From Asparagopsis taxiformis (taxonomy: Eukaryota > Rhodophyta > Florideophyceae > Bonnemaisoniales > Bonnemaisoniaceae), in contig JALQPE010001702.1 in NCBI GenBank assembly GCA_030407315.1, positions 1-64,000 on the forward strand: DNA of 64,000 nt, read 5' to 3'. A program made the position numbers and the translations under genes. This document shows positions 46,771 to 52,512 of this stretch, piece after piece (within the stretch, counting starts at the first letter, position 1; the number at the start of each line of letters is the position of its first letter). The notes beneath the pieces were generated by a model that saw nothing but the letters and a program-made list of their open reading frames with translations, made no database searches and was not told the origin of the DNA.

Positions 46771-49700
46771 ATGGGCTTGAACCAATCCACACCCCTCTCC
46801 GATTCCTTCTACATCCCCCCAAATCCAACAGCACACAATCCAAACTTCCAACCAAACGCCAGCACACCCGAAAGCCGCCTCCTCCACCTTCTCACCGACG
46901 CCCTCGATGCCCCTCCCGCCCCAGTCATGGCTCTCGTCGGCATGGGCGGCTCCGGAAAGACGTGCGCCCTCCGCGCAGTAGCCGCCCACCCTCAAGTCCG
47001 TACCCGCTTCCACCACGCAGTCTGCTACGTCCAGCTCAGCAAATCGGCCCAAGTCGAGGAGATGCTGCAACAGCTCATTGAGATTGTACGTGTGCACTAT
47101 CGCGCCGCCACTGCCGATGACCTATGTCGTATGGCCAACCAGTCGTCCTTGCAGTCGCGTACGATCGCCAAAACCGTATTGCTGCTCAAGAGCAAGTCAA
47201 TTCTGCTGGTGGTCGATGACGTCTGGAAGGGCGCCGCGGTGTACAGTCGTTTCCTCGAACTACTGCGCCTTGTGCAGAAGCATTCCGACGCACTGTGTCT
47301 GGTGTTTTCGACACGCGACTGGAATGTAGCCAACCTCGTCCCGCAAAAAGCACAGATCCATGTACGACCACTGCAGCCCACCAGTGCTGTTGCCGCTGCT
47401 ATTCTGTTCAACTATGCGCAGCTGAATGCACACGACGTGTACGCATGTGCACAGGACATTGTCACCAGTTTTGAACAAGTGCTGTCGCACTGTGCCGGGC
47501 TTCCACTGACACTAGCCATTGCGGGGTGCAGTGTGCGAACCATGCTGCGTAACGAACAATGCAACGTGCAGAACGTTTGGAAAGCATACTTGCGCCGGAT
47601 CACATTGCCTGGCTCGCTGCTGCAGGAGCGCAGTGAGGAGGACAAGAGCATGTTTGCAGCAGTGCAACTGAGCCTGGATGCACTGGAAGAATGTCAAGCA
47701 GCCCAACACGGGGTAGCAGCTGTGAGTGTGCACGAAGTGTTCAGGTGCTTTGCCATTACATCCAAGTCAAAGTGGTGCCCGATTTCTGTGATTGAGTGCG
47801 CACTAGAGGGCAGCAGTGGGGAGGACGGGGAGCAGGCGAGAAAAGGTGAGGTGGAGAAGGTGTGCAGGTCATTTGCACAACTCAACCTCGTCGACATCGC
47901 CACACTCCACGACACGCTGTGCGTCACTCTACACGACCTCGTGCACGATTACTGCACGTTCACGTGTGAGCCAGTGGGACTGATGCAGAAACTGCACAAA
48001 AGTATAGTGACAAACTACTGGATGCGGTACGGCAGCGGGTCAGCGCCCTCGACATCCAGACAGCGGGTGTTGCGGCCGTGGTGGACATGTGCAGGTGCGA
48101 ACAATGGGTACGTTGCCGACAACATTGCAGTGCACCTCTCGGGGGCGGGAGAAGTCGATGAACTGCTTGCACTGGTGGTGGACTTCCGCTGGACGCAGGC
48201 TCGCATGGAGTTCAGTGAACGTGGCAACAACTTGTTCATGCTTTCGCGAGATGTGAAGATTTTGATCCAAGCTGCCACGGGCAGCATGGCGGAGAGCGTG
48301 GAGCGGGGACTGCGGCTAGTGAGCGAGGCTGCGGAACTGTCTGCACCGTTCGTGGCTGTCAACGGGAGGGAGCTGGCGTTCCAAATGCACGGGCGGCTGT
48401 CCGGGGTGTCGAAGCAGTCCGGCGTCGTGAAGCGGTATTTGTGGAGCCTGGAGCAACATGCTGCAGTACCGTGGATCCGACCGTACAGTGGGATGCTGCG
48501 GGAGGCGGGGGGAGCAGTTCGGCTGAATATTTCGCTACGGCGACAGCTGCTGTGCGTGGCAGTGGTGGGCTCCGGGAGGGAGGTGGTAATTGGGGACAGT
48601 GCCGGGCGCGTGTCATTGGTCGACATGAGAAGCGGGAGTGTGTTGCACACCTGCTGGGTGCGGGGCGGAGGAGTACATTCCATTGCAGCGTGCGGGAGCG
48701 ACGGACGATTCGTGGCGGGATGCGAAAACGGGATACTGTCATTACTCAAATACAGATGTACATTCGGTCCTAGAACCCTGATCCGAGACGGTAGCCATCT
48801 CGGCCACGACGGTGCCGTGTTAAGCGTAGTGGCAAACAATGACGGAGATCGCGTCGTGTCGAGCGGCGAGGACACCAAGATAATCGTATGGAATGTAGCC
48901 GATTTCACAAAAGTACACGTACTAGAGGGACACAGCGCAGAGGTGTGCTCTATTGCATTGCGCGGTAGCATGCTGGTCTCCGGATCGTGGGACTGCACGG
49001 TGAGAGTTTGGGACATGGAGAGCGGTAAACCTGTTGGGTCAGCAGTGAAACGTCACGAATACGAAGTGAGCAGCGTGAGCGTCAGTGAGGACAAACAGTG
49101 GATCGCTGCGAGCTCATACGACGGGAGGGTGCGCGTGTGGCATGTGCAGCGAATACAAGGCGTGGCCGGTAGAGGCCCAGACTACGCTGTAGACCAAGAC
49201 ATGGAAATCCGACACTCAGAGTCTGTGATGACGACTGCGTTTGGCGAAACGAGTGAGAAGCTGTACTTTGGCGACCGAGAGGGCATGACGCACTGCTGGA
49301 ACATTATGACACAGAGTGTGTCGGGAAGCGGTGTTCGGGCTCATTCCCAGGATGTGCGTGGAATGGCAGTGGTGTGCAACGAGGGCGAGTACGAGATTGT
49401 GAGTGTGTCGTCGGATGAGAGTGTGTCTGTGCAGCAGATGAAACGTGACTCTGGTGGAGGTGGTAACAATGGCGTTGGTGATAATGGTGGCAACGGTAGA
49501 GCATCAACGAGACTATGGGATTGGGTATCGTTTCCAGACAAGCGGGGGTATGTGCAGAGTGTGCGTGATTGTGGGGAAGTGTGGATAAGTGCCATGACAG
49601 AGGCGGGGTGTGAAATGCTTGAGAGTCAGACAATGCCCTTGGTGGATAGCGCCACGAAAACCGAGGAAATCGCTTCAACGCGTGAGCCTTCAAGCACTTC

Positions 49701-52512
49701 ACTCCCCAATCGGCCCGCTGGAACTCCACAGTCTCCCACCGAAAATGCACCATCTTCTCCATACCCTCAGTCCGTCACAGCTCCACCGAACACCACCCAA
49801 GCCATGTCTCCTCCACAGCTGTATCCAAGCAAATCAACCCCATCCGCCCCACCACTCCATCCTCAACCTTCACCGACTTCTGAATTTCCGCCTGATGCCC
49901 CAGCGAGTTCCCAACCTCCGACCCCAGCCCCTATTCCACCCCAACAAGCCCCTCCATCCAATCCGGTTGCATCCCTCCGCCCCTCCCCCTCTCATACCCC
50001 TTCACAACACTCACCCCCCATCCCGTCCAGGAGACTCGCAGTCCTCCCCGAAGATGTCACCAGAATGGCTGTCAGCTGGAACTCCCAATTCATCGTTGCT
50101 GGAACAAAGTCCGGCTCCGTCTTCCTCATAGACCCACACACCGGATCCCTCCAGCGCCCCATTGCCTCCCACCGCGACAACGGACTTGTCCTTTGCATCG
50201 ACGTCAGCCACGACAATCGCTTCATTGCCTCCGGCTCCATGTGCGGCTCGCTGCGCGTTTTCGATACGAACGGTAGTAGCTGTGTCGATCTACCGTGCAC
50301 GGACGAGCTCGGCTACGTCAAGAGTGTCGGGTTCAGCGAGCACGATAGCCGGGTTGTGGCGGCATGCGGCGATGGCAGAGTACGGTGCTGGGATCTAGAA
50401 CAGAGGGTGCTATTGCACGAGTTCAGCGTTCTGTGCATGTCGCGATCTGTTCCGAAAATCCCCGATGCGATCATAATGCGCAGCGACAAGTGCATCGCTC
50501 TGAAAATGATTAACGAAGCAGGACACCGGCTGTACAACTCTGTGACGGGCACACATTCTGTCGCTGCTGAAGACGGACAGGGGGCCATTCACGAGTTGTT
50601 GCAGAGCATGAAGCAGAAGTACGGTAGGGTGGACAAAGAGGGCTGTCTGTGGATGGCTCCGTTTGGGTCGTCGATATACTATGGGGAGCGGCATCACAAC
50701 GTTGTTCTGGGTACCCTGGAGAGTCGTCTGGTGGGATCGTTCCATCCGTCGGAGTGGGTGTTCAATGCACAGACGAAGATGTTTGTGAGAGGAGTGTGGA
50801 TGCAGGATCAATTCATTGCGAGGCTTGTGGACGGCACTGGCGAGGAAGGGGGTGCGGCGGCAGGAGGAAGTAATGAGGCACCGGAGATTCCTGTGCTCAC
50901 GGGGGGACATGTTGACATTGATGAGGAGTGGCCGGATGTGTTTATCAGCCACGCTGGAGAAGACAAAATTGTGTTTGCCAAGCCTCTGTACGAGAAGTTG
51001 AAGCGGAAGAACAAGCGTCTGAGAGTGTTTCTGGATGCAGAGTCTCTGCACGCCGGGGACAAGACGGGAGCGTACCTGATGAATGATGCGCTGGAGAAAT
51101 GTCGAGCAGCTGTGTTCGTATTATCACGAGAGTTTTTCCGAAAGTGGTGGCCTGTGCACGAGTTGCAGACGATGCTGCGGAGGCGAGCGGAGAACGAGCG
51201 AGAGGGCAAGCCGGGACCTGCATTTATAGTTGTGTTCTACCGTGTGACGGTGGAGGAATGCAAGGGCCAGTATGGAGGAATGGTGAAAGAGCTGAACTGG
51301 TACTGGGAGGACAAGGGGGAAGAAGTGGTGCAATACATCAAGGAGGTATCAAAGTACCCGGGGATTCGGAACGACAAGGGACAATCGGGTGATGAATTGG
51401 GGGAAGAAGTTGCTGATGAAGTGATTCGAGCACTCGAGAGTACCTATGGGAGCGTGGAGAGAAAGCTGACTGAACGATGCGATACGAGCGTTGAAAAGTT
51501 TGCGAAAGAAATCGGTAAGTCGAGGGAAATGCAACAAGAGCTGGTTAGTGCTAGGGAGACTACGGACGCGCAAAGCAGCTTCATTCCGGTCACTGTATCA
51601 TACAATATGACGACTGGGCACGTAGACGCAAGGACATGCGCTGCTTGGAAAACGGCGTTCGCTCATATGCAAAGGCAGAATTTCCGACGTTCACGCAAAT
51701 GGCAACATGAGAACCTGCGTTCACAAGGTGGGGAGAAGTTGAAGGCGCAAGCTGTATGTAAACCGCAATATTGGGAGTACATATTGCCAAACCTAGGAAA
51801 ATGGGCTGGGATGAAATGCTCAGATAGAGAAGTTTCTCGCTCTGAGTACACTTCTACTAGTATACGGAAAGCTGCCCCATCGTGGAGTGTTCGGAACAGC
51901 AAGTGCAATAGGACATTATGGGTAGCCGCCGGGACTAAATTTTCAAAGCCGGATTCATCAAAGGTACGATCAGCAACCTATTCAGACAAAACGCCGCGTG
52001 CTCCTCCAAGAGTGAAAAAAATGCATTGTAAGCCTACAAAATCTTGTACAATTGCAGGTCGGGATTCTGAATCGCACTCTCGAAATTCAGCTTGGGACAG
52101 GAGAGCTCAGCTGAGACTTGCGATGAGATTTGATGGAGGGGTCGTTACGCATGCTTATGATGTCAGAGAGCGGAAGCAGGACGGAGCTCTGGGGCTTGGA
52201 CTGTGCAAGGAAGTTATGAATTCCGCGCCAAAAGTGGGCGATCAAAATCTGTCAAGCGCGTTTCTGTCACCTCACAAACAATCTACTGCTGACAAAATAG
52301 AAGCTGAATCCGCGTCTCTAGTATTTCATGAGAATGCAAGCACTGCAAGAGATGAGACTGAGATGCGTGATACGTGGGGTGCAGACAGTTCTTCTTCATC
52401 ATCAGAGAATAACCCCTCAGGGACATCCAAGAAGTCGCATTTCGCAACAAAGTTATCCGATCTACTTGCGAGCCACAAATGGGAAGTGGACCTCTCTGAA
52501 GAGAACATGTGA
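46771..52512 (+). CDS. NLR-like STAND protein: NB-ARC, WD40 propellers, TIR
   Basis: This uninterrupted gene encodes 1913 residues. It starts MGLNQS, a classic N-myristoylation signal (Gly2, Ser6). The NB-ARC has a P-loop GMGGSGKT (57-64), Walker B LLVVDDVW (145-152), the LVFSTRD sensor (177-183), CAGLPL (241-246) and an MHD-like LHD near 386. WD40 block 1 covers about 591-890 (VVSSGEDTKIIVWN, LVSGSWDCTVRVWD). A Pro/Ser-rich linker (960-1088) leads to block 2 (1089-1218; FIASGSMCGSLRVFD). TIR follows at about 1387-1510 (WPDVFISHAGEDK; WWPVHELQTML with the candidate NADase Glu). The last ~350 residues are unknown. Function by analogy: ligand sensing by the propellers, ATP-driven oligomerisation, and TIR signalling or NAD cleavage in immunity or cell death. 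Confidence 0.92.
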   Translation: MGLNQSTPLSDSFYIPPNPTAHNPNFQPNASTPESRLLHLLTDALDAPPAPVMALVGMGGSGKTCALRAVAAHPQVRTRFHHAVCYVQLSKSAQVEEMLQQLIEIVRVHYRAATADDLCRMANQSSLQSRTIAKTVLLLKSKSILLVVDDVWKGAAVYSRFLELLRLVQKHSDALCLVFSTRDWNVANLVPQKAQIHVRPLQPTSAVAAAILFNYAQLNAHDVYACAQDIVTSFEQVLSHCAGLPLTLAIAGCSVRTMLRNEQCNVQNVWKAYLRRITLPGSLLQERSEEDKSMFAAVQLSLDALEECQAAQHGVAAVSVHEVFRCFAITSKSKWCPISVIECALEGSSGEDGEQARKGEVEKVCRSFAQLNLVDIATLHDTLCVTLHDLVHDYCTFTCEPVGLMQKLHKSIVTNYWMRYGSGSAPSTSRQRVLRPWWTCAGANNGYVADNIAVHLSGAGEVDELLALVVDFRWTQARMEFSERGNNLFMLSRDVKILIQAATGSMAESVERGLRLVSEAAELSAPFVAVNGRELAFQMHGRLSGVSKQSGVVKRYLWSLEQHAAVPWIRPYSGMLREAGGAVRLNISLRRQLLCVAVVGSGREVVIGDSAGRVSLVDMRSGSVLHTCWVRGGGVHSIAACGSDGRFVAGCENGILSLLKYRCTFGPRTLIRDGSHLGHDGAVLSVVANNDGDRVVSSGEDTKIIVWNVADFTKVHVLEGHSAEVCSIALRGSMLVSGSWDCTVRVWDMESGKPVGSAVKRHEYEVSSVSVSEDKQWIAASSYDGRVRVWHVQRIQGVAGRGPDYAVDQDMEIRHSESVMTTAFGETSEKLYFGDREGMTHCWNIMTQSVSGSGVRAHSQDVRGMAVVCNEGEYEIVSVSSDESVSVQQMKRDSGGGGNNGVGDNGGNGRASTRLWDWVSFPDKRGYVQSVRDCGEVWISAMTEAGCEMLESQTMPLVDSATKTEEIASTREPSSTSLPNRPAGTPQSPTENAPSSPYPQSVTAPPNTTQAMSPPQLYPSKSTPSAPPLHPQPSPTSEFPPDAPASSQPPTPAPIPPQQAPPSNPVASLRPSPSHTPSQHSPPIPSRRLAVLPEDVTRMAVSWNSQFIVAGTKSGSVFLIDPHTGSLQRPIASHRDNGLVLCIDVSHDNRFIASGSMCGSLRVFDTNGSSCVDLPCTDELGYVKSVGFSEHDSRVVAACGDGRVRCWDLEQRVLLHEFSVLCMSRSVPKIPDAIIMRSDKCIALKMINEAGHRLYNSVTGTHSVAAEDGQGAIHELLQSMKQKYGRVDKEGCLWMAPFGSSIYYGERHHNVVLGTLESRLVGSFHPSEWVFNAQTKMFVRGVWMQDQFIARLVDGTGEEGGAAAGGSNEAPEIPVLTGGHVDIDEEWPDVFISHAGEDKIVFAKPLYEKLKRKNKRLRVFLDAESLHAGDKTGAYLMNDALEKCRAAVFVLSREFFRKWWPVHELQTMLRRRAENEREGKPGPAFIVVFYRVTVEECKGQYGGMVKELNWYWEDKGEEVVQYIKEVSKYPGIRNDKGQSGDELGEEVADEVIRALESTYGSVERKLTERCDTSVEKFAKEIGKSREMQQELVSARETTDAQSSFIPVTVSYNMTTGHVDARTCAAWKTAFAHMQRQNFRRSRKWQHENLRSQGGEKLKAQAVCKPQYWEYILPNLGKWAGMKCSDREVSRSEYTSTSIRKAAPSWSVRNSKCNRTLWVAAGTKFSKPDSSKVRSATYSDKTPRAPPRVKKMHCKPTKSCTIAGRDSESHSRNSAWDRRAQLRLAMRFDGGVVTHAYDVRERKQDGALGLGLCKEVMNSAPKVGDQNLSSAFLSPHKQSTADKIEAESASLVFHENASTARDETEMRDTWGADSSSSSSENNPSGTSKKSHFATKLSDLLASHKWEVDLSEENM

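Follow-up and report, generated by a model that had tools for sequence, protein, structure and literature searches.

The window described here is a stretch of 64,000 nucleotides from the red alga Asparagopsis taxiformis (positions 1 to 64,000 of contig JALQPE010001702.1, assembly GCA_030407315.1). Inspection of its forward strand revealed a reading frame at 46771..52512 that begins with ATG, contains zero internal stop codons and encodes a protein of 1,913 amino acids. A sequence-only reading of this DNA had described the gene as a single-exon receptor in which an NB-ARC ATPase is followed by WD40 repeats and then by a TIR domain. Reading frame analysis, Pfam scans and codon scores identified a receptor-like gene, hereafter the window gene, whose product contains NB-ARC, APAF-1 helical, WD40, WD40 and TIR segments in that order.

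The NB-ARC domain occupies residues 49-305 (46915..47685). In a piecewise Pfam scan PF00931 matched residues 49-303 over cut-off (E 1.4e-21, 77.3 bits), and a scan of the whole protein gave a match at 50-303 (E 7.7e-21). Among solved structures this piece matched plant coiled-coil nucleotide-binding leucine-rich repeat receptors (CNLs) such as Sr35 (E 1.7e-9). The translation and an alignment with six paralogs placed the P-loop GMGGSGKT at residues 57-64 (46939..46962), the Walker B segment LLVVDDVW at 145-152 (47203..47226), GLPL at 243-246 (47497..47508) and the MHD-like LHD at 387-389 (47929..47937), all four where the sequence-only reading had put them; an STR motif is present at residues 180-182. 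D149 and D150 of Walker B, as well as H388 and D389 of LHD, were invariant among the seven aligned members. The NB-ARC domain is followed, as in the APAF-1 apoptosome family, by an APAF-1 helical domain (APAF1_C, PF17908) at residues ~406-484 (47986..48219), an addition to the domains listed previously. PF17908 scored 24.2 and 26.2 bits in the piecewise scan of the window protein against a cut-off of 22.8, and among five paralogs it scored below cut-off (13.2-21.7 bits) in four and was not listed in one. CARD was not among the 11 families that residues 1-601 matched at E up to 1, and only 48 residues precede the NB-ARC domain.

Pfam recognised WD40 repeats over cut-off (E 5.5e-32) in two blocks, in agreement with the earlier description. 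The first spans residues ~605-890 (48583..49440), and the second was matched at residues 1093-1220 (50047..50430) and extended by alignment to ~1380. The blocks number two by sequence; blades were not countable in a structural model with a mean predicted local distance difference test score (pLDDT) of 36. APAF-1 was among the many WD40 chains matched when this part was compared with solved structures. Leucine-rich repeats (LRRs) were found neither among the best 25 of 51 Pfam families for the whole protein nor in the five pieces scanned. The TIR domain (residues 1389-1561; 50935..51453) was recognised over cut-off by PF01582 and PF13676, with TIR_2 at 1390-1491 (E 1.2e-14) and TIR at 1389-1561 (E 6e-14). 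Its matches among solved structures in the PDB included RUN1 (E 9.1e-9), bacterial TIR domains and AbTIR, and a catalytic-type glutamate, Glu1464 of WPVHEL (51160..51162), aligned in register with the glutamate of WCLDEL in RUN1. The full TIR domain with a WxxxE-type segment that had been read from the sequence is therefore present. The predicted strand-helix order over this domain looks TIR-like, at a confidence (mean pLDDT 36) too uncertain to count. The domain search of the translation thus recovered NB-ARC, WD40 and TIR over cut-off, plus the unlisted APAF1_C, and the Pfam order, PF17908 and the TIR alignment bore out the suggested likeness of the chassis to APAF-1 and other STAND proteins, as well as the placing of a TIR domain near the C-terminus.

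Codon scores for the window gene, trained on the six paralogs, were 0.13-0.20 bits per codon in the five domain segments, and the best of the other five frames reached 0.03. This coding bias, together with 30 paralogous frames of the same order described below, indicates that the frame is not a chance one. Two further parts were absent from the six aligned paralogs. A proline/serine-rich linker at residues ~953-1088 (49627..50034) gave a score that is not distinctive (0.031 versus 0.030 on the other strand), and the piecewise scan returned no Pfam match for the region 49480-50050. The C-terminal tail (51478..52512) contains no known domain; its score was 0.009 over residues 1576-1745 and then 0.164 over residues 1766-1913. 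Because the segment from GTAAGT (51515) to TTGCAG (ending at 52057) has splice-like ends, is in frame and stop-free and has a coding score of 0.009, the tail may hold an intron of 543 nt (51515..52057, forward strand). Thus the proposed single-exon frame of 5.7 kb stood as far as an open frame and uninterrupted domains are concerned, but single-exon status is secure for the domains only.

Profile searches of the genome (141,494,207 bases in 3,156 contigs) revealed that the window gene has many relatives. We found at least 150 TIR_2 matches (the best 150 of 315 candidates) and at least 114 NB-ARC matches (the best 114 of 414), all over cut-off. The lists, from which the window gene itself is absent, give a lower bound on family size; some of their entries appear to be haplotype duplicates. 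Frames of at least 1,250 amino acids contained 77 of the 150 listed TIR matches, and the remaining 73 were in shorter frames, which may reflect broken genes, introns or assembly errors. An NB-ARC match lay on the same strand within 6 kb of 69 of the listed TIR matches. In 43 of these 69 pairings the two domains shared a frame, as judged by equal frame length, and NB-ARC was then always upstream, by 2,554-2,977 nt. TIR was upstream in six of the 69 nearest pairings, each time in a frame differing in length from that of NB-ARC. Contigs with two or more TIR matches held 103 of the 150, and adjacent pairs were on the same strand in 50 of 67 cases.

We examined 41 regions (20 + 21) that were picked by TIR score, frame length and clustering and hence form a non-random sample. 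Of these, 30 contained NB-ARC and TIR together in a frame of 1,200 or more codons, ten were fragmentary or without one of the domains, and one (L033) was misplaced. In all 31 long frames, that is, the 30 paralogs plus the window gene, NB-ARC precedes TIR and both GLPL and WxxxE are present. GxGK[T/S] was found in 30 of the 31, the exception being L021, whose NB-ARC match is without that end. WxxxE also occurred in every one of the 21 TIR domains of L009-L028, broken genes included. The window protein is 24-27% identical to the six aligned paralogs, with a mean identity of 41% in TIR, 27% in NB-ARC and 18-22% in WD40. As a separate observation, region L026 contains, beside its TIR gene, a frame of 1,189 amino acids that by eye resembles a retrotransposon polyprotein.

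The window protein begins with MGLNQS (46771..46788), which fits the pattern MGxxxS. A methionine precedes NB-ARC in 27 of the 31 long frames, giving 21 distinct N-termini that are homologous and so not independent. MG begins 15 of these 21, and 11 fit MGxxx[S/T], as in MGNCLS and MGKCFS. MGxxxS is a putative N-myristoylation pattern; judging from these N-terminal sequences, a myristate may anchor the window gene product and many other family members to membranes.

We compared modules among 28 paralogs, from which L014 and L017 had been removed as near-identical sequences (threshold 98%). Some of those kept, such as L041/L042, may still be alleles. The domains evolve at unequal rates. Over pairs with a synonymous divergence (dS) of 0.05-0.8, which are not independent of one another, the median ratio of nonsynonymous to synonymous divergence (dN/dS) was 0.09 for TIR (29 pairs), 0.32 for NB-ARC (45 pairs) and 0.58 and 0.53 for the two WD40 blocks (102 and 105 pairs). 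Helical and WD40 parts co-varied closely (Spearman 0.93-0.96), as compared with 0.55 for NB-ARC versus TIR and 0.46 for WD40 versus TIR. At least 85% identity in one module was combined with at most 70% in another in 58 of 378 gene pairs, and six pairs were at least 85% identical in all modules. Trees of NB-ARC, the first WD40 block and TIR mutually rejected one another's topologies in approximately unbiased (AU) tests (p at most 7.8e-5).

The exchange of modules was most apparent in a clade of 12 genes defined by WD40 (support 99). Its members carry NB-ARC domains of three types (each with support 100) and TIR domains of three types (support 71, 86 and 100), and seven of the nine possible NB-ARC by TIR combinations are present. 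L023, L024, L029 and L030 represent every combination of two NB-ARC types with two TIR types. Within types, dS was 0.05 and 0.10 for NB-ARC and 0.14 and 0.35 for TIR; between types, it was about 2 for NB-ARC and 1.9-2.3 or saturated for TIR; WD40 dS was 0.12-0.41 throughout. Similarly, L031 and L032 are 99% identical in NB-ARC and 47% identical in the second WD40 block. In eight pairs compared with a sliding window, steps in identity, where present, were at residues ~420-480 and 1350-1390 (numbered as in the window protein), which places them within the APAF-1 helical domain and immediately ahead of TIR. An assembly chimera is an unlikely source of such mosaics, as the exchanged modules have themselves diverged (TIR dS 0.35 for L029 versus L030). 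L034-L036, which lie on one contig, have TIR DNA that is 99-100% identical and WD40 blocks that are 52-61% identical, and the near identity of these TIR sequences beside divergent WD40 blocks suggests homogenisation of TIR by gene conversion. A conserved effector, a fast-evolving repeat part and swapped modules form the pattern expected of recognition genes; this pattern does not indicate a ligand.

Proteins with related architectures have been described. Passages on Chondrus crispus report 61 NB genes, of which 58 are of the NB-WD40 type, TIR being present in 23 of the 58 (PMC7145615), and passages of a second paper describe TIR-NBARC-WD40 proteins in Chondrus whose TIRs are not orthologous to plant TNP TIRs (PMC9806590). 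Thus, NB-ARC-WD40 proteins, some with TIR, are already known from a multicellular red alga, where NB-ARC, WD40 and TIR are associated in many copies as they are here. The comparison is by description only: those passages do not state the position of TIR, an APAF-1 helical domain or module exchange, and the name TIR-NBARC-WD40 could mean an N-terminal TIR in Chondrus. According to passages of PMC8891106, proteins with NB-ARC, a winged helix (WH), APAF1_C and WD40 occur in cyanobacteria, green and red algae and animals. Their NB-ARC, helical domain and WD40 follow the order seen in the window protein, and Rhodophyta are included; the main text of that paper has no word beginning with TIR, whereas in the window protein a TIR domain comes after WD40. 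Metazoan APAF-1 likewise shares NB-ARC, the helical domain and WD40, as laid out in passages of a preprint (PMC13174449), but it has a CARD, which was not found in the window protein, where a TIR domain stands on the C-terminal side instead. The same preprint passages describe human TEP1 as combining a DUF4062 TIR-like NAD hydrolase (NADase), NACHT, an APAF-1-like helical domain and WD40. TEP1 is therefore alike in pairing a TIR-like NADase with a STAND ATPase that carries a helical arm and WD40, but its TIR-like domain takes the CARD position before NACHT, whereas the window protein has NB-ARC and a TIR domain near its end.

Plant TIR-NB-LRR proteins such as RUN1 and ROQ1 share the NB-ARC motifs and TIR, with the glutamate in register for RUN1, but carry TIR at the opposite end (it occupies residues 1389-1561 of 1,913 in the window protein) and LRRs in place of WD40. 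Protein searches provided 12 TIR-bearing comparators with TIR_2 in their Pfam lists, two bacterial and one plant protein among them. They have a STAND ATPase and/or WD40 and overlap the window protein in their parts list. TIR begins within the first 40 residues in nine of the 12, lies mid-chain and before the ATPase in P0070 and P0083, and was not securely placed in P0049. The window protein thus differs from bacterial-type TIR-STAND-WD40 proteins with an upstream TIR in that its TIR follows the ATPase and repeats. P0139, a database protein, shares the domain order of the window protein. The ARC2/helical region of L023 gave two matches at E<=0.01, P0138 (50% identical) and P0139 (48% identical), among the best 4,472 candidates. 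Searches with the window protein and with alignment A1 each returned, as the best 8,000 candidates, mostly WD40 proteins and no red-algal name, and no Chondrus name was among the matches listed in these searches or in that with the L023 region.

According to passages of PMC6928737, three NB-ARC plus WD40 genes of Pyropia yezoensis, with no TIR listed, rise during oomycete infection. Passages of the A. taxiformis genome paper report 391 'potential pathogen receptors', WD40-repeat proteins among them, as well as 186 genes under WD40 among unique domains (PMC12115072); no word in its main text starts with NB-ARC or TIR. In the accessible literature we saw neither such a chassis with TIR at its C-terminal end nor red-algal module exchange described, and an earlier description is possible. 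Relative to these passages, the C-terminal TIR, the frequent MG N-termini, the fast WD40 versus conserved TIR and the module exchange are new here.

In APAF-1, as passages of PMC13174449 (preprint) describe it, the WD40 propellers keep the ATPase closed until a signal binds, after which a ring forms. By analogy drawn from its domain order, the window gene probably encodes a STAND-type intracellular receptor with an APAF-1-like chassis, in which a C-terminal TIR NADase would be the effector. In the resting state, the ATPase would be locked shut by the WD40 blocks, which the APAF-1 helical arm would hold in place. Contact of the WD40 surface with a ligand, or with a host component that has been disturbed, would release the ATPase, and nucleotide exchange would allow NB-ARC domains to assemble into a ring, possibly at a membrane. 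This ring would gather the C-terminal TIR domains into an active NADase, resulting in defence or cell death. TIR NADases are activated by clustering. The family as a whole could constitute a large combinatorial repertoire whose three modules are all interchangeable: a switch (NB-ARC plus N-terminus), a sensor (the fast-evolving WD40 part) and an effector (the conserved C-terminal TIR). Such a repertoire would amount to a eukaryotic NLR-like system assembled separately and in an order opposite to that of plant TNLs. Recombination or gene conversion would shuffle its modules within frames that stay uninterrupted, and the window gene would be among its most divergent members; we regard this broader proposal as an even call. 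The independent algal receptor postulated by the sequence-only reading gained partial support in that the paralogs evolve like recognition genes, but the gene is not singular, being a divergent member of a large family. As to independence of origin, NB-ARC/APAF1_C/WD40 proteins are widespread in the passages of PMC8891106, while the placeable TIR comparators have TIR upstream.

Other readings of the locus have to be weighed against a defence receptor. The window gene could be an APAF-1-like housekeeping gene for cell death or stress that stands apart from the expanded receptor family. Its nearest intact paralogs are 28-30% identical (whole-protein search, best 25 of 7,232 candidates), its linker and tail are peculiar to it in comparison with the six aligned paralogs, and its contig has no other entry among the listed TIR and NB-ARC matches, from which the window gene itself is also missing. 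Its surroundings speak for this as well: the window contains 27 frames of at least 220 amino acids, and of nine scanned neighbours seven matched ordinary families (tubulin, UvrD helicase, bromodomain/acetyltransferase, Pumilio, WD40, MGDG synthase and Ndr) and two matched none. The domain order is nevertheless that of the family, and TIR is the best-kept part relative to the six paralogs, so we consider a housekeeping role unlikely while leaving it some weight. Slightly less probable in our estimate is a receptor for allorecognition, in which WD40 surfaces would read variants of conspecifics or of parasitic algae at cell fusion and TIR would kill the fused cell. Fungal HET-type STAND proteins act in allorecognition, and red algae undergo cell fusion. 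A large clustered family with variable WD40 and module exchange fits such a role equally well; it is indistinguishable here from pathogen sensing. The sole hint from expression is that of the NB-ARC plus WD40 genes in the passages on infected Pyropia.

The output of the TIR domain can also be read differently. Some TIR domains, for example those of animal TLRs, act as scaffolds, and the TIR domain of the window protein could be a non-enzymatic adaptor that recruits other TIR proteins. Its activity is deduced from sequence, and TLR2 chains are among its weak PDB matches (E 0.15-0.29). Conservation of WxxxE in every long frame argues for an enzyme instead, as does the finding that its best solved matches are plant and bacterial TIR domains, one of them deposited as the NAD(+) hydrolase AbTIR; the chance of a scaffold is small. 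Lastly, decayed copies of part of the gene exist, and the coding signal is weak in the linker and part of the tail, as would be seen if the gene were a chimeric assembly, a pseudogene or a chance frame. The intact 1,913-codon frame, the coding bias in its five domain segments and the order shared with 30 paralogous frames and P0139 make such an artefact negligible in probability, and on the codon scores together with the paralogous frames we reject the artefact and chance-frame readings.

Several observations weigh against a TIR-effector receptor of the kind favoured here. The piecewise Pfam scan found no winged helix in the window protein, and in paralog L010 PF21296 (winged helix) scored 15.8 bits, below its cut-off of 27. 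Two structure predictions, based on alignments of three sequences, had mean pLDDT values of 42 and 36 and were unusable. Because linker and tail are missing from the six aligned paralogs and identity to the nearest intact relatives found is 28-30%, the window gene may have diverged in function, and it was outside the sets used for dN/dS and module exchange. Non-independence of the pairs behind the dN/dS medians has been noted above. Among first-block WD40 pairs dN/dS reached 1 in seven of 102, and in no pair of the other domains; with so few, relaxed constraint is as possible as positive selection. Lastly, six of the 21 distinct N-termini are without MG (MKRNAR, MQNFPS, MSSQPR, MRNLHV, MHHSFS and MNTHTP).

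Red algae and the green algae and plants parted more than a billion years ago, according to the abstract of PMC5010701. A large NLR-like family in which TIR sits at the opposite end would demonstrate that more than one arrangement of switch, sensor and executioner can be built, and the reversed order would allow one to test directly if clustering by the ATPase is all that TIR output requires. Module exchange makes it testable how receptors diversify without introns between modules, and the family supplies candidate disease-resistance genes in a farmed seaweed. What distinguishes this family and is worth following is its combinatorial exchange of modules among paralogs in the first place, and then the order of domains and the possible tether to membranes.

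Part of the window gene (47009..49289, forward strand) also recurs in decayed form within a repeated stretch elsewhere in the genome. Residues ~80-840 recur in L051-L053 at 89% identity with in-frame stops, and the flanks of these copies share at least 97% identity over 4-5 kb; L053 may form a haplotype pair with its neighbour contig. Another 13 contigs carry decayed matches, several with similar borders. The fragment looks as if it is carried by a repeated element. C-to-T differences in the decayed copies were raised in CG contexts (0.109-0.115) but not in CHG (0.035) or CHH (0.040-0.045) contexts. A CHG-directed C-to-T effect, which had been suspected from stops rich in TAG, thus found no support. 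L051 also contains, at positions 474-577, a near-perfect palindrome of 104 nt with arms that are 96% complementary and no loop, which is present in L052 and L053 as well.

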